From assembly GCF_003449015.1 (NCBI RefSeq), contig NZ_QRGD01000010.1, forward strand, positions 62,001-126,000: DNA of 64,000 nt, read 5' to 3'. Positions within the stretch are counted from its first letter, which is position 1. The number at the start of each line of letters is the position of its first letter. A program made the position numbers and the translations under genes. Shown one piece after another: positions 1,640-11,733 of the stretch. Origin of the DNA: Aureibaculum luteum (GTDB taxonomy: Bacteria; Bacteroidota; Bacteroidia; Flavobacteriales; Flavobacteriaceae). A model generated the notes under the pieces. That model ran no database searches. It was not told the origin of the DNA and saw nothing but the letters and a program-made list of their open reading frames with translations.

Positions 1640-2074
1640 ATGTTTTCTAAAGCCTGTGAATACGGAATTAAAGCATCAATCTACATTGCCTTACAATCGT
1701 TGCAAGACAAGCGTGTGAGCCTTAAAGAAATTGCAGAAGAAATTAATTCCCCTGTTGCCTTTACAGCTAAAATACTGCATCAATTGGCGAAAAACGATAT
1801 TTTAGATTCCGTTAAAGGTCCCGCTGGTGGTTTTCAAATTGAAAAAGATAATGTTGAGAAATTGAAATTAAGTCATGTTGTTTTTGCAATAGACGGAGAT
1901 TCCATCTATTCGGGTTGTGGTTTAGGTTTGGAAAAATGTAATGAAAAGCAACCCTGCCCTTTACACGACAAATTCGTAATAATACGTAACGAACTTAAAC
2001 AAATGCTAGAAGAAACTAGTCTGCTTGACTTAACTTCAGGTTTAGATTTAGGCATTACATTTTTAAAACGATAA
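1640..2074 (+). CDS. Rrf2-family transcriptional regulator with Fe-S cysteines
   Basis: The 144-residue protein is a standard Rrf2 winged-helix regulator: MFSKACEYGIKASIYIA at the N-terminus, a recognition region near residues 30-60, then Cys93, Cys100 and Cys106 spaced C-x6-C-x5-C, which would ligate a [2Fe-2S] or [4Fe-4S] cluster as in IscR and NsrR. The next gene encodes the RIC di-iron repair protein, so the likely signal is nitric oxide or Fe-S damage. Its own promoter carries a 24-bp palindrome, which suggests autoregulation. The exact subfamily (NsrR versus another NO-sensing Rrf2) cannot be settled from motifs alone. Confidence 0.9.
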   Translation: MFSKACEYGIKASIYIALQSLQDKRVSLKEIAEEINSPVAFTAKILHQLAKNDILDSVKGPAGGFQIEKDNVEKLKLSHVVFAIDGDSIYSGCGLGLEKCNEKQPCPLHDKFVIIRNELKQMLEETSLLDLTSGLDLGITFLKR

Positions 2075-2130
2075 AAAAAATTACATTTAATTAAGATAAA
2101 AAGGTAATAATATCATATTAAACAATAATT

Positions 2131-2850
2131 ATGGAAAAAACAATTGGTCAAATAGTAGCAGAAGATTATAGAATTGCACAAGTATTCAAAAATCATGGTA
2201 TTGACTTTTGTTGTAAAGGAGATAGAAGTGTTGAAGAAGTTGCACAAAAAAATAATGTAGATGCTTCCTTACTTTATAAAGAAATAGATGCGATTCAAAA
2301 TCAAAATACAAATGAAAGTATTGATTTTAAATCATGGTCTTTAGACTTATTGGCTGATTATATTGAGAAAAAACATCACCGTTATGTAGAAGAAAAAATA
2401 CCTGTTTTAAAACAGTACTTAACCAAATTATGTAAAGTACATGGCGGTCGCCATCCTGAGTTGTTTGAAATTACTGAACATTTTAATGCATCAGCAGGTG
2501 AATTAACCGCACATATGAAAAAGGAGGAGTTGATTCTTTTCCCTATCATCCGGAAAATGATAGACGCTAAACATAAAGGCACAGAAATGTCTAAACCTCA
2601 TTTCGGAACAGTCGAAAACCCAATAGAAATGATGATGAATGAACATGAAAATGAAGGAGACCGATTTAGAGAAATTGACCGTTTAAGCAACAGTTATACT
2701 CCGCCTGCTGATGCATGTAATACCTATCAGGTAACATTTTCCTTATTAAAAGAATTTCAAGATGATTTACATCAACATATTCATCTTGAAAATAACATAC
2801 TTTTCCCAAAAGCTATCGTATTAGAAAAAGAAATAGCCTTTCAAAACTAG
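2131..2850 (+). CDS. ric: iron-sulfur cluster repair di-iron protein (RIC/ScdA/YtfE)
   Basis: The 239-residue protein has the two RIC parts. An N-terminal DUF542 domain carries the Cys27-Cys28 pair (GIDFCCKG). A hemerythrin-like four-helix bundle carries candidate di-iron ligands: His82/83, His104/108, His128, Glu132, His172 and the H-x-H-x-H cluster at 214-218 followed by Glu220. RIC proteins restore Fe-S clusters damaged by NO or oxidants and act in the cytoplasm. The gene lies 56 bp after the Rrf2 gene in the same direction, so the two are probably co-transcribed and NO-responsive. Length is typical. Confidence 0.93.
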   Translation: MEKTIGQIVAEDYRIAQVFKNHGIDFCCKGDRSVEEVAQKNNVDASLLYKEIDAIQNQNTNESIDFKSWSLDLLADYIEKKHHRYVEEKIPVLKQYLTKLCKVHGGRHPELFEITEHFNASAGELTAHMKKEELILFPIIRKMIDAKHKGTEMSKPHFGTVENPIEMMMNEHENEGDRFREIDRLSNSYTPPADACNTYQVTFSLLKEFQDDLHQHIHLENNILFPKAIVLEKEIAFQN

Positions 2851-2896
2851 TTGAACTCTAGTTTCATTAGACTCTGTTTTATAACTATTAGAATGG

Positions 2897-2934
2897 AAGA
2901 ATCGAGATGAATGAACTCATACATCTCGATTCTT
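2897..2934. terminator. hairpin terminator after ric
   Basis: Perfect 13-bp inverted repeat AAGAATCGAGATG (2897-2909) and its complement (2922-2934), with a 12-nt loop and T-rich flank. It lies 46 bp after the ric stop, before the hemerythrin gene at 2954. Confidence 0.7.
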
Positions 2935-2953
2935 TATCTTTAATCCCATAAAT

Positions 2954-3418
2954 ATGACATCGAAAAAACCATTGAAAAGAGTAAAAGAACTACAATTTTT
3001 AAGTAGAGAGCATCATCATACGCTTTTACTATCATGGAAAATTAGAACTGGATTCCAAAAAGGTGTCAATATTTCGATAATAAAACAATATGTAGATTGG
3101 TTTTACAATCATCATATAAAACAACATTTCAACATGGAAGAACTCCATATTTTTCCCATTCTTGGTGATCAACATGAATTAGTTAAAAAAGCAATTTCAG
3201 AACACAAAAGATTAAAAATATTATTTACCACACAAGTAGATATTGAAAAGTCGCTAAGTCTGCTTGAGGAAGAACTAGAGCAGCATGTTCGATTTGAAGA
3301 ACGCATTTTATTCAAACAAATACAAGAAATAGCAACAGATCAACAACTAAAAATGATTGATGCCATCCATACCGAAGAAGTTTTTATTGATAATACCTCA
3401 AACGAATTTTGGAAATAA
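2954..3418 (+). CDS. hemerythrin-domain protein
   Basis: The 154-residue protein is a single four-helix hemerythrin-like domain with candidate metal ligands His20-22, His53/54, His58, Glu62, His84, His111 and Glu115/116. Such domains bind O2, NO or a di-iron centre. There is no signal peptide, so it is probably cytoplasmic. It follows the RIC gene by about 100 bp but is separated from it by a strong hairpin, so it may be partly independently expressed. Neighbourhood suggests a role in NO or oxygen handling; the specific function is not determined. Confidence 0.85.
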   Translation: MTSKKPLKRVKELQFLSREHHHTLLLSWKIRTGFQKGVNISIIKQYVDWFYNHHIKQHFNMEELHIFPILGDQHELVKKAISEHKRLKILFTTQVDIEKSLSLLEEELEQHVRFEERILFKQIQEIATDQQLKMIDAIHTEEVFIDNTSNEFWK

Positions 3419-3486: not shown

Positions 3487-5370
3487 CTAATGATATGAAG
3501 GCAAAACGCAGGCTATATTAATTTTTAAAAGCATAGTGTCTAAACCTTTTATTAAAGCTTGTTGCATAACTTTTGAATCCTCAGCATGACATTGCAAACA
3601 TGCACCTACGAGTAAAATATTTCGTTGTTCTTTTAAATTAAAAGGTCTAAAATCTGTTCGGGTAGAAACTATTTTAGCTTTAGGTTCTTTCAAAAAAGGA
3701 ATCCAAGCATCTTCTGGTAAATTATCATTTTCATTTAAGGCATATTCAGGAGTAAATTGCCAGTTTCCTGAACTATTATCGGTATTATAAACTAGCGTTC
3801 CTTTTCCATAACCAATAGCCTCAGAATTTGCATGACAAGATTTACAATCGCGGACTTTCTTTGCAATGGTATGTGGTGCATTTGGGGCATATAGCCTATG
3901 GAAAGTGTTTAAGTCATTGGTGTCTTTACTATAACTTTGGTTATCTATGGTTAACACCATTCCAGGTATAGCAGGTTCTATTTTCAAGTCATCTCCATCA
4001 AATCTCACCCCCATGGATGGTTGGCTAGTACCAAATTCAAAAACATGTTCCACCCACTGACCTATAACTTCTTTTTTTGCTAATAAATCATATCCCATTT
4101 TATCATTTTCATCAAAACTACTATGACATCCAATGCATTTAGGTGCCCATTGCGAATGACAAGTAGAGCAATTTACATTTTTGTGAGCTGCATCTCTTGA
4201 ACATATTTCAGATTGCTTTTTTATTTCATGTAGTTCTCCATCCTTTTTACTTATTAAATAGGCATTATTACCTTCCATATACGTATTCACCAAAGGATTA
4301 TTATCCTTCGCAGTTACTAAAATTTGCTTATCTGTATGTTTATAATCTCGATGCATCCACACCAATTTAGATTCTCTATCTAAATCTTTATAACTTGTTG
4401 TATTCGGTTTAGAATCAAAATGACAATCAGAACATTGTATTTTTACAGCTTTTTCTTGATGCAAATATGTTTTTCCATCTCCCATAACCTCGTGACTACT
4501 GTGACAATCTATGCATAAAAGTCCTTTAGTGTGATGTACGTCTTCACTTTTTCGGGTATAAATTCTACCGTCTTCAAAAGTTTTATACTCATCTTTGTCC
4601 GTAATATCTTTCTGTTCTAAAAGAGTTTCGTGCCAGCCTTGAAAGTTGGTAGAAATTCTACTACTTCTGCTATGGCAACCAAAACAATGCTCGTTAGTCA
4701 TAAAAATATCCGTAGAAGGATGCATTTTTGGTAAGTTCTCCTTATTTGAATTTAAATAGGTTTCTAAACTTGTTGTAGCCTCTTTAGAGTAGTTCAAATG
4801 GCAAGCATTACAACCTCCTCCTCTACTCAATTGTGTAATTTTTCCGAATTCCTTTTTAGCTGCACCTAAATGACAATTAGCACATAAATCTCTTAAATGT
4901 TTATCTGCCGCAGAGTATTCAATCTCTTTAATATGATATAAACTATCAAGCGAATCAGATTCACCAAAAATAAATTTATCTACGGCGATTAGTCCGCTAT
5001 TGGTAGTCATCAAAGAGTGATTTATTTTGTACAATTCATCTGTATGACATTTACCACATGTAGCATCTGCATCTGCTAAATTTCCGGGAATTAGCACCAT
5101 ATTCTGATGTGATTCATCTTTAGTGTTAACATTAGGATTTCCTAAATGACAACTAACACAACCTATTGATTCGGGATTATGAAATTTAGAAAATCCTTTT
5201 ACTTGAATATGACAGTTCAAGCAACTTTCCTTTGACACATTAATTGAAAAATATTCTTGATTTGAAAAATTTGTTAAATATTCAAAATCATTTACTTTTA
5301 GCAATACAAAACCAATTACCAAAAATGATAAGAGAATAATGACTGTGTATTTTTTATGAAAAGGTTTCAT
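3487..5370 (-). CDS. membrane-anchored 12-heme c-type cytochrome
   Basis: The 627-residue protein has one N-terminal membrane segment (about residues 9-27) and then a periplasmic region with twelve CxxCH heme c motifs: CLNCH, CVSCH, CGKCH, CANCH, CNACH, CFGCH, CIDCH, CSDCH, CSTCH, CIGCH, CKSCH and CLQCH. It is rich in extra histidines that could be distal heme ligands. I do not recognise a named enzyme family. It is divergent from the molybdopterin oxidoreductase operon, sharing a 184-bp control region with a Crp/Fnr-like palindrome. I infer it is the periplasmic electron partner or terminal redox enzyme of that system. An independent octaheme-type reductase-like activity is the alternative. 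Confidence 0.88.
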   Translation of the reverse strand: MKPFHKKYTVIILLSFLVIGFVLLKVNDFEYLTNFSNQEYFSINVSKESCLNCHIQVKGFSKFHNPESIGCVSCHLGNPNVNTKDESHQNMVLIPGNLADADATCGKCHTDELYKINHSLMTTNSGLIAVDKFIFGESDSLDSLYHIKEIEYSAADKHLRDLCANCHLGAAKKEFGKITQLSRGGGCNACHLNYSKEATTSLETYLNSNKENLPKMHPSTDIFMTNEHCFGCHSRSSRISTNFQGWHETLLEQKDITDKDEYKTFEDGRIYTRKSEDVHHTKGLLCIDCHSSHEVMGDGKTYLHQEKAVKIQCSDCHFDSKPNTTSYKDLDRESKLVWMHRDYKHTDKQILVTAKDNNPLVNTYMEGNNAYLISKKDGELHEIKKQSEICSRDAAHKNVNCSTCHSQWAPKCIGCHSSFDENDKMGYDLLAKKEVIGQWVEHVFEFGTSQPSMGVRFDGDDLKIEPAIPGMVLTIDNQSYSKDTNDLNTFHRLYAPNAPHTIAKKVRDCKSCHANSEAIGYGKGTLVYNTDNSSGNWQFTPEYALNENDNLPEDAWIPFLKEPKAKIVSTRTDFRPFNLKEQRNILLVGACLQCHAEDSKVMQQALIKGLDTMLLKINIACVLPSYH

Positions 5371-5438: not shown

Positions 5439-5454
5439 TGTAACTTATGTTACA
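5439..5454. promoter_or_regulatory. Crp/Fnr-type palindromic operator
   Basis: TGTAAC-TTAT-GTTACA is a perfect 16-bp interrupted palindrome with the geometry of Crp/Fnr-family sites. It lies in the divergent gap, 69 bp before the 12-heme cytochrome start and 101 bp before the oxidoreductase start, and could control both. Which Crp/Fnr protein would bind is unknown. Confidence 0.6.
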
Positions 5455-5554
5455 CAATTTAAACACTTTAGATGATAAAAGTCATCTATTCTATAACTTC
5501 AGTCACTTAACTTTACCACTAATATATATAACACTAATATATTTTAAACTTAAT

Positions 5555-7798
5555 ATGAATACTTCAAGAAGAAAATTTATAAAAGTAGGTGCCCTTGGAA
5601 TAGGAAGTGCAATGGTAGCAACTTCAGCCATAAATGTCTTTGGATCTAATAAAAATGCAAATAAATTTATCGCTAAAAGTATTCCAGTAAATTTAAAAAG
5701 AACTGCTACCTATTGTGAGGTCTGTTTTTGGAAATGTGCAGCTTGGGTCCATTCTGATGGTGATAGTCATATCCAAAAAATAATTGGGAATGATGATGAC
5801 CCACATTGTAACGGACGATTATGTCCTAGAGGTACAGGTGGCGTTGGTATGTATAATGATGAAGACCGGCTTAAAACTCCTTTAATTAGAACTACTATTA
5901 ATGGAGAAGAAACCTTTAGAGAAGCCTCTTGGGATGAAGCCTTAGACTTAATCGCAAACAAATTTAAAGGCATAAAAGAAAAATACGGAGCTGAAGCTTT
6001 AGGGTTACTTAAACATGGTTGTCCAGGTTGGCATTTTGAACATTTGTTTAAATCTTATGGATCCGATACCATTGCTGAACCTGCTTTTGCACAGTGTAGA
6101 GGTCCAAGAGAAACAGCTTTTTCGTTAACCTTTGGTTCTTGGGTAGGTTCACCTGAACCAACGGATATCAGAGACACCAAATGCTTAGTGCTAATTGGTT
6201 CACATATAGGTGAAAATATGCACAACACTCAAGTTCAAGAAATGTCTGAAGCTATAGATAATGGAGCTACAATTATCACTGTTGACCCACGTTTTTCAAC
6301 TGCTGCAAGTAAATCAAAACATTGGTTAGCTATTAAGCCAGCAACTGATATTGCTTTATTACTTGCTTGGATGAATGTATTAATAGAAGAAGGACTATAT
6401 GACAAAGCTTATGTGGAAAAATACGCTTTAGGATTTGATGAGTTAAAAGAACACGTTCATCAATTTACACCCGAATGGGCATACGGTATTACCACTATAA
6501 AACCAGAAGTAATTAGAAAAACAGCTAGGGAGATGGCACATGCTGCACCTGCTGTTATTATACACCCAGGAAGACACGTAGTTTGGTATGGAGATGACAC
6601 GCAACGTGAAAGAGCCATTGCTATTTTAAATGGTTTACTCGGTTCTTGGGGGCGTAGAGGTGGATTCTATTTCAAAGAAAAAATTTCAATTCCTAATTTC
6701 CCACATCCCGCATATCCACATCCAAAATGGGATTGGAAAGACATTGGAGAGAATTATCCATTAGCTCAAATGGGGCTTACAAATGAAATCATTAGATCTT
6801 CAATACCTAGTGAAAATCCAAAATACCCAGTTAAAGCATGGATGGTAGCTGGAACAAATTTAATTAAATCTATTCCTGACACTAAACAATTAGAAGCAGC
6901 AATAGATGCATTAGAATTTATGGTAGTAATAGATACTATGCCAATGGATATTACAGGATACGCTGATGTAATACTACCTGAATGCACCTATTTAGAACGT
7001 GCTGATATTGTACGCTCAGCAACCAATAGAGAACCTTCAATTGCGGTTAGATTTCCTGCAGTAAAACCTAAATACAAAACGAAGCCTGGAGCTTGGATTG
7101 CAAGAGAAATCGGAATACGCTTAGGATTAAAAGACTATTATCAATACGATGATTTCAATGAGGTTATTGATTGGCAACTGAAAGAGTTAGGAACTTCAAG
7201 AGAAGAAATGGAAAAGATTGGCGTAAAAAAATACCCTCGTAAATCGGGGCCAATGTATTTAAATGAAGATGAAGTTCATGAATTTGGTACGGCAAGTGGT
7301 AAAATTGAATTCTATTCTCAAGAATTAAAAGATTTAGGATTTGACCCATTACCAAAATATACTCCACATCCTGAACCACCACAAGGTTTTTATCGTTTAA
7401 ATTATGGAAGATCTCCAATGCATACTTTTAGTAGAACTTCTAACAATCCTAATTTAACCGATTTAAAAGATGAAAATAACCTTTGGGTAAACCCAAAAGT
7501 TGCTAGAATTGTAGGACTAAAAACCGGACAACGCGTTTGGTTAAGTAATCAAGATGATATTATTTCAACTTTTTCCATAAAAGTAAGAATAACTGAAAGA
7601 GTACGTTGGGATTCAGTGTATTTGGTACACGGTTTTGGTAACGATAATAAAAAATTAAGTAGATCATATGGTAAAGGTATAGATGATACCCAAATGATAT
7701 CAAAAATATTTGTCGATCCGATTATGGGAGGAACAGGTATGAGAGGAAATTTTGTGAAAATACTTATTGAAAATCCACATAAAGCTATAGAAGTATGA
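5555..7798 (+). CDS. Tat-exported molybdopterin oxidoreductase, PsrA/PhsA/SoeA-like catalytic subunit
   Basis: About 747 residues from the ATG at 5555. An upstream in-frame ATG at 5447 lies inside the palindromic operator and would bury the signal peptide, so it is rejected. The N-terminus carries a twin-arginine signal (NTSRRKFIKVGA). A [4Fe-4S] site follows: Cys54, Cys57, Cys61 and Cys90 (LCPRG). Cys181 (AFAQCRGPRE) sits where polysulfide/thiosulfate reductases have the molybdenum-ligating cysteine. Family members oxidise or reduce sulfur compounds with a bis-MGD molybdenum cofactor. The next genes supply the B and C subunits, a sulfur transporter and rhodanese-like proteins, which makes a sulfur substrate likely. 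Direction and exact substrate are not known. Confidence 0.9.
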   Translation: MNTSRRKFIKVGALGIGSAMVATSAINVFGSNKNANKFIAKSIPVNLKRTATYCEVCFWKCAAWVHSDGDSHIQKIIGNDDDPHCNGRLCPRGTGGVGMYNDEDRLKTPLIRTTINGEETFREASWDEALDLIANKFKGIKEKYGAEALGLLKHGCPGWHFEHLFKSYGSDTIAEPAFAQCRGPRETAFSLTFGSWVGSPEPTDIRDTKCLVLIGSHIGENMHNTQVQEMSEAIDNGATIITVDPRFSTAASKSKHWLAIKPATDIALLLAWMNVLIEEGLYDKAYVEKYALGFDELKEHVHQFTPEWAYGITTIKPEVIRKTAREMAHAAPAVIIHPGRHVVWYGDDTQRERAIAILNGLLGSWGRRGGFYFKEKISIPNFPHPAYPHPKWDWKDIGENYPLAQMGLTNEIIRSSIPSENPKYPVKAWMVAGTNLIKSIPDTKQLEAAIDALEFMVVIDTMPMDITGYADVILPECTYLERADIVRSATNREPSIAVRFPAVKPKYKTKPGAWIAREIGIRLGLKDYYQYDDFNEVIDWQLKELGTSREEMEKIGVKKYPRKSGPMYLNEDEVHEFGTASGKIEFYSQELKDLGFDPLPKYTPHPEPPQGFYRLNYGRSPMHTFSRTSNNPNLTDLKDENNLWVNPKVARIVGLKTGQRVWLSNQDDIISTFSIKVRITERVRWDSVYLVHGFGNDNKKLSRSYGKGIDDTQMISKIFVDPIMGGTGMRGNFVKILIENPHKAIEV

Positions 7799-8328
7799 GA
7801 TATGCAATGGTAATTGACACTTTAAAGTGTGTAGGTTGCAGTGATTGTGTTGTTGCTTGTCAAACTGAAAATGATGTACCCATTGGGTATTGCAGAGATT
7901 GGATAACTGAAACAGTAAATGGCACCTACCCAAATGTTGATTTAGAATTTAAATCCGAACGCTGTAATCACTGTGACAATCCACCTTGTGTTAGATGCTG
8001 CCCAACAGGTGCTAGTCATGTTGTTGAAGGCGGTATTGTTTTGGTAACCTCAAACGAATGCATTGGCTGTGGAGCTTGTATAGAATCTTGCCCCTATGAC
8101 GCTAGGTACCAACACCCTGATGGCTATGTTGATAAATGTACTTTTTGTCATCATAGGTTAGAAAAAGGCCAACTTCCCGCCTGTGTTGAAGTATGCCCCA
8201 CAAAGTGCATGTATTTTGGCGATTTAGACAATCCGAATAGTGAAGTTTCAAAATTACTAAAAAACAGGAAACATAAAACACTTGCCCCTGAGGCAGGTAC
8301 TAAACCTCATATTTTTTATTTGATCTAA
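7795..8328 (+). CDS. four-cluster ferredoxin subunit (PsrB/PhsB-like)
   Basis: The 177-residue protein overlaps the catalytic gene by 4 bp (ATGA), indicating translational coupling. It has four cysteine groups for four [4Fe-4S] clusters: CVGCSDCVVAC near residue 12, CNHCDNPPCVRCC, CIGCGACIESC, and CTFC with a later CVEVC. It lacks its own signal peptide, as usual for B subunits that travel out with the Tat-folded A subunit. Its role is to pass electrons between the molybdenum subunit and the NrfD-type membrane subunit encoded next. Confidence 0.93.
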   Translation: MRYAMVIDTLKCVGCSDCVVACQTENDVPIGYCRDWITETVNGTYPNVDLEFKSERCNHCDNPPCVRCCPTGASHVVEGGIVLVTSNECIGCGACIESCPYDARYQHPDGYVDKCTFCHHRLEKGQLPACVEVCPTKCMYFGDLDNPNSEVSKLLKNRKHKTLAPEAGTKPHIFYLI

Positions 8329-8339
8329 CAGCCACAACT

Positions 8340-9281
8340 ATGGAAGAAGAATTATTTTCGAGCGGAAGAAACATACCTCATATAGATCCAACTCTAGAAG
8401 TTTGGCATTGGCCAATATCCATTTACCTATTTTTAGGTGGATTGGCGGCAGGCTTATTGTTCTTTGCTGGAGCTGTCACTATTTTGGACAAAGAAAAAGA
8501 GTATCCTACTGCCGTAAAATATGCCTCTATTATATCCCCTGTGGCATTAAGTTTGGGTTTACTAGCACTTGTTTATGATTTAACACATCCTCTTTACACT
8601 TGGCAACTATATACTACTATACGGTTAGAATCGCCAATGTCTTGGGGGGCATGGGTTTTGTTAATAGTTACGCCACTTTCATTTTTATGGGTAATAAGTT
8701 ACTTCTCTGAAATTTTCCCTAAATGGAAATTAAGACTAGGAATTCTTAAAAAACTGGAGTCTTTTACCAAAAAAAACAGAAAAAAAATGGCATATGCCTT
8801 GATTCCGTTATCTATAATTTTAGGCGTGTACACCGGTATATTACTTTCTGCATTTAATGCAAGACCGTTATGGAACAATGCTATTTTAGGACCACTTTTT
8901 TTAACTTCAGGATTATCTACTGGAGCGGCAACCATACTATTATTAGCCAAAACGCATAAAGAAAAAAACTTATTTAGCAGAATTGATTTAGTGTTGATTG
9001 TTATCGAACTTGGACTAATTGTTCATATGCTTATGGGAATGTATGCCGGCTCAGAAGTACAACTTGAAGCAATGCAATTATTGGTTGGCGGTGAATTCAC
9101 TTTAATGTTTTTCGGCTTTGTAATTATACTCGGATTATTAGTTCCCGCAATTTTAGAATTAACTGAAATTCTCGGTTATAAAGTACCTGTTAGTATACCT
9201 GCCATATTAATTTTAATTGGTGGATTGGTACTCAGATTTGTAATGGTTGAAGCTGGACAAATAACTCGATATTTATATTAA
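8340..9281 (+). CDS. NrfD/PsrC-family membrane subunit
   Basis: The 313-residue protein is almost all membrane helices (about eight), beginning HWPISIYLFLGGLAAGLLFFAG, shortened here to the motif YLFLGGLAAGL typical of NrfD/PsrC quinone-interacting subunits. It would anchor the A and B subunits on the periplasmic face and exchange electrons with menaquinone. It starts 11 bp after the ferredoxin gene. No heme-binding motif is visible, as expected for PsrC-type rather than cytochrome b-type subunits. Confidence 0.9.
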   Translation: MEEELFSSGRNIPHIDPTLEVWHWPISIYLFLGGLAAGLLFFAGAVTILDKEKEYPTAVKYASIISPVALSLGLLALVYDLTHPLYTWQLYTTIRLESPMSWGAWVLLIVTPLSFLWVISYFSEIFPKWKLRLGILKKLESFTKKNRKKMAYALIPLSIILGVYTGILLSAFNARPLWNNAILGPLFLTSGLSTGAATILLLAKTHKEKNLFSRIDLVLIVIELGLIVHMLMGMYAGSEVQLEAMQLLVGGEFTLMFFGFVIILGLLVPAILELTEILGYKVPVSIPAILILIGGLVLRFVMVEAGQITRYLY

Positions 9282-9292
9282 AAATCACAAAT

Positions 9293-9814
9293 ATGAAAAT
9301 TCAAAATAAACATACGTATTGGAACCCTTACTTCGGAGGTTTTTTACTAGGTCTATTAATACTTTTTACTTTTTACATTACAGGGAGAGGCCTTGGAGCA
9401 AGTGGAGCTATGAAAAGTAGTGTTGTAAGCATTGTAGATACTGTTTCACCTGAACATGCCAAAAATAATGCTTACTACAGTAAGTTTATTGAAGAAGATA
9501 AATCTTCGCTAAACAATTGGTTAGTGCTAGAAACTTTGGGCATCTTAATAGGTGCATTTGTATCTGGTGGTTTAGCTGGAAGAATTAGCTTAAAAGTACA
9601 ACACTCACCTAAAATTACAAGTAAAAGACGTTTAATTTTCGCCTTAATTGGTGGTGTGCTATTTGGGCTAGGAGCTCAAATTGCACGAGGTTGTACAAGT
9701 GGAGCTGCCCTTAGCGGTATGGCCGTATTATCAACTGGAGGTTTCGTAACCATGTTAGCCATATTCGGTACTGGTTATTTAGTTGCTTATTTTTTTAGAA
9801 AAAATTGGATTTAA
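9293..9814 (+). CDS. YeeE/YedE-family sulfur transporter, first half
   Basis: The 173-residue membrane protein has a conserved ARGCTSG motif (Cys134) of the YeeE/YedE (TsuA thiosulfate transporter) family. It is about half the length of a full TsuA, and the following gene encodes a second YeeE-like half, so the two probably form one two-subunit channel. The family passes thiosulfate or related sulfur species through conserved cysteines. It is 11 bp after the NrfD gene and belongs to the same operon. Confidence 0.85.
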   Translation: MKIQNKHTYWNPYFGGFLLGLLILFTFYITGRGLGASGAMKSSVVSIVDTVSPEHAKNNAYYSKFIEEDKSSLNNWLVLETLGILIGAFVSGGLAGRISLKVQHSPKITSKRRLIFALIGGVLFGLGAQIARGCTSGAALSGMAVLSTGGFVTMLAIFGTGYLVAYFFRKNWI

Positions 9815-9832
9815 AATATAAAACAAAAAACT

Positions 9833-10423
9833 ATGGGACCATTAATTCCTAACGATCTTATTCCTTTTGAATGGAATCTTGTAATTGCAATTATTATTGG
9901 TATTGCATTTGGCTACATTTTAGAATCCTCCGGATTTTCTTCTTCACGAAAACTAGCAGGTGTATTTTATGGTTATGATTTTGCAGTGCTAAAAGTGTTC
10001 TTTACTGCAGCATTAGTTTCTGTAATCGGTATTTTTTATATGGATTATTTAGGCTATGTTGATTTTTCAATGCTTTATGTTCACCCGTTCTACCTATGGG
10101 GAGCCTTAATTGGCGGTGCCATAATGGGTGTAGGATTTGTAGCAGGAGGCTTTTGCCCAGGAACAAGTCTATGTGCCGTTGCAATTGGTAAAATAGACGC
10201 TATGATTTATGTAATTGGTATTATGATTGGTGTGTTTATCTTTTCTGAATTTTATTCTTTTTTTGAACCCATTTACGATGGTTATTTTTACGGTAACATT
10301 ACCTTAACGGAATCTTTAAACATATCACCATATTGGTTTATCTTATTTTTTACAATTTTTGGAATAATTGCTTTTGCACTCTCAGATATGGTTAGAAAAA
10401 AAGTAAAAAAAGTATTTTATTGA
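9833..10423 (+). CDS. YeeE/YedE-related transporter, second half (DUF6691-like)
   Basis: The 196-residue membrane protein has a GGFCPGTSLC motif with Cys108 and Cys114 in a helix hairpin, matching the second YeeE/YedE repeat. It follows the first half by 18 bp. The two-gene arrangement of YeeE plus this partner is common in Bacteroidota and Proteobacteria. I infer import or export of a sulfur oxyanion or sulfane sulfur across the inner membrane for the neighbouring molybdenum enzyme. Confidence 0.83.
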   Translation: MGPLIPNDLIPFEWNLVIAIIIGIAFGYILESSGFSSSRKLAGVFYGYDFAVLKVFFTAALVSVIGIFYMDYLGYVDFSMLYVHPFYLWGALIGGAIMGVGFVAGGFCPGTSLCAVAIGKIDAMIYVIGIMIGVFIFSEFYSFFEPIYDGYFYGNITLTESLNISPYWFILFFTIFGIIAFALSDMVRKKVKKVFY

Positions 10424-10438
10424 TTAAAATTATTAATT

Positions 10439-11098
10439 ATGATTAATAGAAATTTAGTAAAGGCATTACGCTATAGATACGTTTTACTTGCCGTAGGATT
10501 AATTCTACTAGCTGGAGGTCTAGTATTGTTGCCTAAACAAGAAAAACATAAAGGAATTACATCTGCCGAATTACTCAGTAATGCTATATCTCCTGAAAGA
10601 TATATGTCTACTGATGAGATTGCACATAAAATTGTAAATCAAGATCCTTCTATTTTACTGATAGATGTTAGAGATTCTTTAAATTACCAAAAATATAGTT
10701 TACCCAATGCACTTAACATCCCTCTTCCTAAATTATTGGATGATAACTCAATGACATTTTTAAATCAAGATCAATATGAAGTTGTCTTCTTCTCAAATGA
10801 TAATTTTGATGCAGACAAAGCATGGATAATTTCCAACCGCCTTGGTTTCAAAAACATACATGTTTTAAAAGGTGGATTAAACAGTTGGTTTAAAACAATT
10901 ATAAATCCAACCATGCCTGAAGAAAACATGCCTGCAAATGCCTTTGAACAATACCGTTTTAGAAAAGCTGCAAGTATGTATTTTGGAGTAGTTTATCCTG
11001 AATCCGTGATACAACAATCTACAGAACAAAAAAAGGTTCCAAAGAAAGTAATAACAGTTAAAAAAAAGAAAAAAAGCACACCCGAAGGTGGTTGTTAA
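10439..11098 (+). CDS. membrane-anchored pseudo-rhodanese with C-terminal cysteine (A)
   Basis: The 219-residue protein has an N-terminal membrane segment (about 12-31), a rhodanese fold (ILLIDVRD at 72-79, LPNALNIP, VLKGGLNSW) and a Lys-rich tail ending PEGGC. At the catalytic-loop position, where rhodaneses have Cys (VVYCxxG), this one reads VVFFSNDN with Ser119. The last residue, Cys219, is the only cysteine in the protein. The membrane topology would put the domain in the periplasm. I infer loss of classical sulfurtransferase chemistry and a new role for the C-terminal cysteine, possibly as a sulfur carrier. It is 15 bp after the transporter gene. Confidence 0.85.
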   Translation: MINRNLVKALRYRYVLLAVGLILLAGGLVLLPKQEKHKGITSAELLSNAISPERYMSTDEIAHKIVNQDPSILLIDVRDSLNYQKYSLPNALNIPLPKLLDDNSMTFLNQDQYEVVFFSNDNFDADKAWIISNRLGFKNIHVLKGGLNSWFKTIINPTMPEENMPANAFEQYRFRKAASMYFGVVYPESVIQQSTEQKKVPKKVITVKKKKKSTPEGGC

Positions 11099-11121
11099 AA
11101 CATTGATAAAATGCTATAAGT

Positions 11122-11733
11122 ATGAAAGAATTAGAAAAAACCAAACGAATATCTATTGCGGCAGTATTTAGTATTTTATTAGTAATAATAGCCTTATTAT
11201 CGTATAAAAAACCAAAAAATCTCTACACAATCACAACTAAGACTGCCTTAGAAATGCTATTGGACAAAAATATAGCAGTCAACGTAGATATTTTAAATGA
11301 TACTACTATTGTACCCATTGACATTAGAAGCCAATATGATTATGAAAAAGGATATATTCAAAATGCTATTCACATGGAGGCAGCAGAAGTATTAAGCAAT
11401 GAGAACATTGAAATTTTAGAAAAAATTAAAGCGAATAATAAAATGGCCGTTCTTTACGGAAACAACCCTGAAGGGGTTATTGCACCTTACGCTGTATTAA
11501 TACAAATGGGATATAATAATTTAAAAATTTTAAAGGTAGAAAATAGTTATCATCAGAATCAATTAATTACCAAAAATGTTGACCTAGAAAAGTCTATAAT
11601 CGATATTCCTAAATTTATAAAAGGGTCTGCTAAAAATGCAAATATAAAACCAAAATCTAATACGCACAAAGCACCAAAAAAAGTAATAACTATTAAAAAA
11701 TCTAAAAAAAACAAACCCGAAGGTGGTTGTTAA
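11122..11733 (+). CDS. membrane-anchored pseudo-rhodanese with C-terminal cysteine (B)
   Basis: The 203-residue protein is a divergent paralogue of the previous one: membrane segment about 10-28, rhodanese-like domain (VPIDIRSQYDYEKGYIQNAIH), Lys-rich linker and the same ending PEGGC. The catalytic-loop position has Gly113 (AVLYGNNPEG) instead of Cys. Cys203, the final residue, is the only cysteine. It starts 23 bp after gene A and is the last gene of the operon. The conserved tail in two otherwise divergent proteins points to selection on the terminal cysteine. The biochemical role is not known. Confidence 0.83.
   Translation: MKELEKTKRISIAAVFSILLVIIALLSYKKPKNLYTITTKTALEMLLDKNIAVNVDILNDTTIVPIDIRSQYDYEKGYIQNAIHMEAAEVLSNENIEILEKIKANNKMAVLYGNNPEGVIAPYAVLIQMGYNNLKILKVENSYHQNQLITKNVDLEKSIIDIPKFIKGSAKNANIKPKSNTHKAPKKVITIKKSKKNKPEGGC

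Follow-up and report, generated by a model that had tools for sequence, protein, structure and literature searches.

Pseudo-rhodaneses with a near-invariant terminal cysteine beside split YeeE channels in Bacteroidota: candidate sulfur-carrier arms

The tail of SoxY carries the motif GGCGG, and Sud, a rhodanese serving Psr, employs the cysteine of its rhodanese site. SoxY is described as a periplasmic carrier with its sulfur-binding cysteine on a swinging arm (PMC11237559), and hand-over of this sulfur to the cysteines of a YeeE-like channel, SoxT, is called conceivable (PMC11582611). DsrC binds sulfur on the conserved penultimate cysteine of its flexible C-terminus (PMC3397948), PmpA and PmpB are two halves of YeeE (PMC11582611), and YeeD is a cysteine-bearing partner of YeeE that forms one protein with it in some species (PMC11073785, PMC11582611). 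Sud of Wolinella appears, in a title in the reference list of PMC3397948, as a periplasmic protein of polysulfide respiration.

Here we describe membrane-anchored pseudo-rhodaneses whose basic tail terminates in a cysteine and which are encoded beside a split YeeE. New relative to the systems above are the body of the putative carrier, a rhodanese without its own cysteine, the membrane anchor or direct channel fusion of this body, and the exchangeability of the enzymes in its operons. No description of this protein type was found in the literature searched, mostly without subscription journals, and none is contained in the portions consulted of PMC11582611, PMC11073785, PMC12998232, PMC13047784, PMC7887784, PMC11237559 and PMC3397948.

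The operon of Aureibaculum luteum and its two pseudo-rhodaneses

The window analysed is a stretch of 64,000 nucleotides from Aureibaculum luteum. The genes at 5447-11733 are arranged in tandem on the plus strand with spacings of -4 to 23 bases, in the order Mo oxidoreductase, Fe-S subunit, NrfD-type subunit, Y1, Y2, A and B, and a cytochrome gene is divergent from them.

3487..5370, minus strand: multiheme cytochrome c, ExtM-like, with 12 CXXCH motifs (250 bits, curated cutoff 800)
5447..7798, plus strand: Mo-bisPGD oxidoreductase, PsrA/PhsA-like, with the twin-arginine motif SRRKF (Pfam, NCBIfam)
7795..8328, plus strand: Fe-S subunit, PsrB/NrfC-like, with several 4Fe-4S motifs
8340..9281, plus strand: NrfD/PsrC-like membrane subunit (profile matches)
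9293..9814, plus strand: Y1, a PmpA-like YeeE half with the motif GCTSG, covering positions 175-309 of the 310 of the Sulf_transp profile
9833..10423, plus strand: Y2, a PmpB-like YeeE half with the motif CPGT, covering positions 8-150 of that profile
10439..11098, plus strand: A, membrane-anchored pseudo-rhodanese of 219 aa; its sole cysteine, Cys219, is the last residue
10793..10795, plus strand: codon of A Ser119, at the position of the rhodanese catalytic cysteine (profile alignment)
10991..11095, plus strand: tail of A, residues 185-219, Lys-rich, ending STPEGGC, predicted disordered
11122..11733, plus strand: B, second membrane-anchored pseudo-rhodanese, 203 aa; its sole cysteine, Cys203, is the last residue
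11458..11460, plus strand: codon of B Gly113, at the position of the rhodanese catalytic cysteine (profile alignment)
11647..11730, plus strand: tail of B, residues 176-203, Lys-rich, ending NKPEGGC, predicted disordered

The first gene of the operon encodes a Mo oxidoreductase by Pfam, likely starting at the internal ATG at 5555; its score against the NCBIfam PhsA model NF012032, 450.4 bits, is below the curated cutoff of 694, so that an assignment to PhsA fails. Y1 and Y2 score 87.5 and 60 bits against YeeE/YedE (PF04143, Sulf_transp; cutoff 27) and cover different parts of the profile, with a conserved cysteine in each, which makes them YeeE halves with conserved cysteine motifs like PmpA/PmpB and likens the pair to YeeE/TsuA; the best score against the NCBIfam TsuA model was 48.4 bits (Y1), with a curated cutoff of 400. 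The divergent cytochrome with 12 CXXCH motifs was found in 17 of the first 21 context loci. A longer form of this cytochrome, 905-921 aa, occurs in L085, L099 and L104; the L085 protein has additional matches to models of membrane cytochrome b. Near the cytochrome gene, at 1640-3418 of the window, lie genes for a small Rrf2-like regulator (recognised by eye), a ScdA/RIC-type hemerythrin and a second hemerythrin, perhaps a nitrosative-stress cluster.

A and B match Pfam Rhodanese (PF00581) at 50.7 and 40.9 bits, above the cutoff of 22.2, and this is their only Pfam match at E<=0.01. AlphaFold2 models built from a four-row alignment give A a helix at residues 4-29, a confident domain at about 54-181 (pLDDT about 80-90) and a tail, residues 185-219, with pLDDT below 50; B has a similar layout, with pLDDT below 50 at residues 176-197 and 199-203. 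The best Foldseek matches of A in the PDB are rhodaneses (3gk5, TM 0.83 by target); for B, rhodanese-fold entries such as EanB and 2hhg are among the best matches. When the proteins are aligned by profile to rhodaneses of solved structure, Ser119 of A falls in the column of the catalytic cysteine of 6mxv (YFYCGGGFRS) and Gly113 of B occupies the same column, so that neither protein has the cysteine in the active-site loop that characterises a rhodanese sulfurtransferase. An earlier note made from the window sequence had proposed a rhodanese fold for both proteins, a catalytic position occupied by Ser119 in A and Gly113 in B, and one cysteine per chain, placed last after a Lys-rich stretch and PEGG; the profile and structure matches, the alignment and the two ORFs, respectively, agree with it on each point.

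A rhodanese fold with Gly in place of the site cysteine is also seen, by alignment, in Alr3790 (3hix), for which neither a terminal-cysteine tail nor a channel fusion was noted. With SoxY, the window proteins and their relatives share a cysteine on a Gly-rich C-terminal arm, but A and B yield no SoxY domain among their Pfam matches, have a rhodanese fold, are anchored or, in relatives, fused to the channel, and possess a basic linker and a GGC or EGC end. The likeness to DsrC/TusE likewise concerns a cysteine at the C-terminus, sulfur-binding on a flexible segment there and terminal on the tail here; A and B match no DsrC model of Pfam or NCBIfam at E<=0.01, and DsrC/TusE, a different protein family, have DsrEFH and DsrAB as partners. 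Sud carries polysulfide sulfur on a rhodanese-site cysteine that A and B lack, whereas the cysteine of the present family is on the tail. YeeD/TsuB is a soluble, cytoplasmic, TusA-like partner, in contrast to the anchored and probably periplasm-facing terminal-cysteine pseudo-rhodanese.

The terminal cysteine and the vacated site across the family

An early scan of genome contigs with A alone as the query returned one relative, in Lutibacter sp. B1 (L004). A search of 249 genomes of the family to which the window organism belongs identified 21, its own included, with a clear A (E<=2.3e-37), those of the remaining rows that were looked at being copies of B or different rhodaneses; with the Lutibacter locus, these genomes supplied 22 A and 22 B-position proteins. 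Across the phylum, the A profile (E<=1e-12) produced matches in 60 of 395 Bacteroidota genomes. These relatives, with those of the Y1 search below, led us to reject the view that the arrangement is peculiar to one operon. The remaining 60 places in the table of the A profile were read as loci (40 + 20), and then six loci with a Y1 row but none for A.

The protein set comprises 105 members from 87 loci, 86 in Bacteroidota and one on a Gemmatimonadota plasmid: ORFs from the first 61 context loci that match the A1 profile at E<1e-12 and from L129-L154 that match it at E<1e-3, to which the two window proteins and the Gemmatirosa member were added. L148 (G411) was dropped, as no YeeE was seen there and its rhodanese has no tail. 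Also outside the set are the L109 member, which has no ATG-started full ORF and ends KKKKKEGC when read in frame, and the B proteins of L036, L046, L051 and L052, which are below the cutoff; the last three of these have the tail, and that of L036 has none in frame. Gene arrangements were compared in 87 Bacteroidota loci, namely the window, L004, L034-L053, L082-L121 and L129-L154 minus L148, with L109 included and Gemmatirosa left out.

The earlier note held that its carrier idea would fail if relatives lost the terminal cysteine or retained the catalytic one. A cysteine lies within the last three residues of 103 of the 105 members, and two relatives, L097 and L098, have a cysteine in the catalytic column, which is vacant of it in the other 103 (46 Ser, 31 Gly, 24 Ala, one Asn and one Asp; Ser, Gly or Ala in 101); in L113, a cysteine stands beside the column. 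The tails end in GGC (65), EGC (20), MGC (4), GGC plus one residue (9) or GLCS (2), with DGC, FQC and RGC found once each, so that GGC with at most one trailing residue is present in 74 members; the exact GGCGG end was found in none of the 105. The two members without the terminal cysteine are B of L038, which stops before the tail, and the frame-broken A of L144, where a different frame encodes a KKKREGC end. Interrupted reading frames were also observed in B of L036, with the tail out of frame, and within the Y2 part of the ORF in L134. Among the 22 close relatives, A always has the terminal cysteine (last or second-last) and Ser-Asn at the site, and B has the tail in 20. Additional cysteines are present in 20 of 61 short members (a second one in 18, more in two). 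As a control, of 328 other ORFs of at least 250 aa in the same loci, one ends in cysteine and four have one at either of their final two positions, and none of 205 operon partners ends in cysteine. At the sequence level, the terminal cysteine on the basic tail of a vacated rhodanese is thus near-invariant.

The 30 residues before the terminal cysteine have a mean charge of +5.5 (76 proteins, range -1 to 14). The LRRRGC end of the Gemmatirosa member makes it less likely that the Lys run is an artefact of AT content. The six residues from the catalytic column have a mean charge of -1.33, with Asp or Glu in 71 of 79 sequences; in 26 C..G.. loops selected by pattern in nearby double rhodaneses, the mean is +0.19 and neither residue occurs.

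The tail is also found on other proteins. One tail, ending GGCG, is common to three proteins in L051 and in L052: A, B' and a double rhodanese, the latter two of lipoprotein type. The double rhodaneses (L051:5693-6868 and L052:6549-7727) combine it with active-type loops that keep both site cysteines. A neighbouring double rhodanese in L038 (3008-4063) ends EGGC; hence, the tail does not belong to a single operon protein. A 411-aa protein in L027 (G186) has a lipoprotein-like start, an active-type rhodanese loop, CRSGVRSG, and the end SEEGC.

Within an operon, the tails of A and B resemble each other. Identity over the last 14 residues is 0.861 within and 0.571 between operons (20 operons, permutation p=1e-5), and the match persists without the last four residues (80.5% within versus 43.8% between), whereas the proteins minus their last 25 residues are no more similar within operons than between them (0.192 versus 0.193, p=0.59). 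Because only the tails match in this way, a common partner probably recognises both, to judge from the sequences. Synonymous differences between A and B tails are common. Codons at identical tail residues agree at 0.657, compared with 0.549 expected from codon usage (12 positions), and at 0.589 versus 0.525 over 20 tail positions; this excess indicates that gene conversion may contribute to the matching. Recent conversion as the only cause was judged unlikely, and it is simpler to suppose that selection acts on the tail because a partner recognises it.

Split YeeE as the near-constant partner of three kinds of front enzyme

Y1 was detected in 66 of the 395 Bacteroidota genomes (E<=1e-8). At E<=1e-30, there are 67 Y1 places in 64 genomes, and all 67 adjoin a family member beside Y1/Y2, one of these members being the frame-broken protein of L144. 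In the raw genome table (n=395), A and Y1 occur together in 58 genomes, A only in two and Y1 only in eight (Fisher p=5e-58); when the loci were read, six of the eight proved to have a family member (L149-L154), the other two being weak Y1 rows (G368, G571). Loci were gathered by similarity to A or Y1, and such sampling favours the pattern, as it would overlook YeeE halves whose partner is very different. Among the first 61 context loci, the Y1 motif is GCTSG in 56 of 58 cases and GCMSG in the remaining two, and the Y2 motif is CPGT in all 58. A single ORF encodes Y2 together with the pseudo-rhodanese at 35 of the 87 Bacteroidota loci, comprising 34 of the 35 octaheme loci described below (in L134 the break falls within Y2) and one Mo-type locus, L099.

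The enzyme encoded in front of this pair varies. The Mo complex is followed by Y1, Y2 and A in 43 of the 87 loci (including the window, L099, L132, L144 and L149); 35 loci have instead a cytochrome of the octaheme tetrathionate-reductase family, and five have a rhodanese gene directly upstream (L106, L116, L120, L121, L145). Two further loci, L049 and L050, combine the Mo complex with A and B without a YeeE beside them, and the arrangement is seen on short or cut contigs in L043 and L082. The view of the Mo enzyme as a constant partner was accordingly rejected, 40 of the 87 loci having the octaheme cytochrome or the rhodanese in its place. The near-constant unit, at the level of gene content, is Y1, Y2 and a terminal-cysteine pseudo-rhodanese. 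The earlier note had these proteins serve both the Mo enzyme and the YeeE channel of the operon. It is supported as regards the degenerate site, the conserved terminal cysteine and the sulfur and YeeE context, and needs correcting as regards the partner, split YeeE and not the Mo enzyme being the commonest constant one.

The L088 cytochrome scores 567.7 bits against the octaheme family TIGR04315 (cutoff 375; one protein tested). Eight CXXCH motifs were present in all 14 octaheme cytochromes counted, and the other 21 octaheme loci were assigned by BLAST to L088 only. A cytochrome b gene lies beside the octaheme gene in 33 of 35 loci, none having been found in L151 and L154. The operon, seen at L088:9406-13390 and in 34 similar loci, thus consists of the octaheme cytochrome, cytochrome b561 (33/35), a YeeE half and a fusion of the other half to the pseudo-rhodanese; it occurs in many Bacteroidota, has the look of a sulfur system linked to quinol, and was not found described in the literature searched.

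Upstream genes of the rhodanese type encode two or three rhodanese domains after a hydrophobic start in L116, L120 and L121 (Pfam); in L106 the gene is a one-domain ORF, and L145 was assigned by BLAST only. A class V aminotransferase then follows in L121 (Pfam) and L116 (motif match). Rhodanese, YeeE halves, pseudo-rhodanese and class V aminotransferase in L121 (6898-10906), L116 and L128 represent a third version of the unit. A plasmid of Gemmatirosa kalamazoonensis encodes a two-domain rhodanese, homologues of Y1 and Y2, an A with Ser as the site residue, and a class V aminotransferase. A further match is on a Burkholderia plasmid. By contrast, the terminal-cysteine pseudo-rhodanese is absent from two betaproteobacterial plasmid loci with split YeeE: in the Cupriavidus locus, the neighbouring rhodanese has the site cysteine and no terminal one, and in the Sulfuricella locus, the pair has no annotated rhodanese next to it and the protein that follows lacks a cysteine end.

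The loci without YeeE bear on the alternative that the tails mainly serve the periplasmic oxidoreductase, as Sud-like feeders of the Mo or octaheme site, with the YeeE linkage secondary. L049 and L050 keep the Mo complex and both tails, and G181, one of the two genomes and 99% complete, has no Y1 match at all, so the tail has a use besides YeeE; in these loci, it probably serves the Mo enzyme, for which Sud of Wolinella, going by the title cited above, offers a precedent in polysulfide respiration. Across the family, three kinds of front enzyme interchange while Y1 and Y2 stay, and the fusion partner is Y2, which makes this alternative unlikely as a general account.

A candidate carrier arm for the YeeE channel

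The interpretation that we favour, with moderate confidence and from sequence and gene context, is that A and B are membrane-tethered, periplasm-facing sulfur-carrier arms that partner the split YeeE channel (Y1 + Y2). A periplasmic orientation is suggested by the lipoprotein-type partners sharing the tail in L051 and L052, the twin-arginine enzyme and the anchor helix. The terminal cysteine would accept sulfur, as a persulfide or as a thiosulfonate derived from thiosulfate or tetrathionate; the donor would be the periplasmic front enzyme, in the window the Psr/Phs-like Mo complex. The pseudo-rhodanese domain would serve as a docking body, the basic linker would hold the anion and swing, and the cysteine would present the sulfur to the conserved cysteines of Y1 and Y2, which would pass it inward. 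The direction of sulfur flow is the least certain step. That A and B act like a swinging-arm carrier is by inference only; given the known arms of SoxY and DsrC, the chemistry proposed would be ordinary.

A more far-reaching version, which we put forward as a tentative possibility, is that the catalytic cysteine of a rhodanese has been shifted onto a swinging basic tail, and the vacated site, whose loop is mostly acidic, has become a docking pocket in which the basic GGC tail is loaded before the arm dips into a YeeE half, often fused to it. Such a system would be a tethered carrier-channel import machine with interchangeable front enzymes.

The terminal cysteine might instead be a redox or disulfide anchor, cross-linking A, B, YeeE or the enzyme, or a sensor thiol reporting reactive sulfur. 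A lone thiol on a flexible arm would suit a reversible cross-link, and A and B, with their matching tails, could pair. We nevertheless regard this as distinctly improbable: each octaheme locus has, as seen, one terminal-cysteine pseudo-rhodanese, so that tail-to-tail pairing of paralogues is not general, and the front enzymes come from families of sulfur chemistry.

A role of the tail in binding a metal, haem or cluster, or in docking the protein to the haem enzyme, with the cysteine as a ligand or contact, is very unlikely; the front enzymes carry haem or molybdenum, and a basic tail could dock to an acidic cytochrome, but the window tails have no second cysteine and no His near the end, and the tail is retained where the front enzyme is a rhodanese. 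Equally unlikely is a terminal GGC acting as a processing or sorting signal, its cysteine removed or attached to something: the strict C-terminal position, with at most one residue after GGC in most members, would fit, but the tail ends in no hydrophobic segment, an anchor is already present at the N-terminus of A and B, the fused YeeE proteins have the same kind of end, and EGC, MGC, RGC and one-residue extensions occur.

The sulfur-carrier interpretation provides a function hypothesis for a common operon type of Bacteroidota, in which one unit is combined with three kinds of sulfur enzyme. As 35 of the 87 loci encode a single polypeptide with both the arm and half of the channel, the proposed hand-over is testable with one protein and one cysteine mutation.
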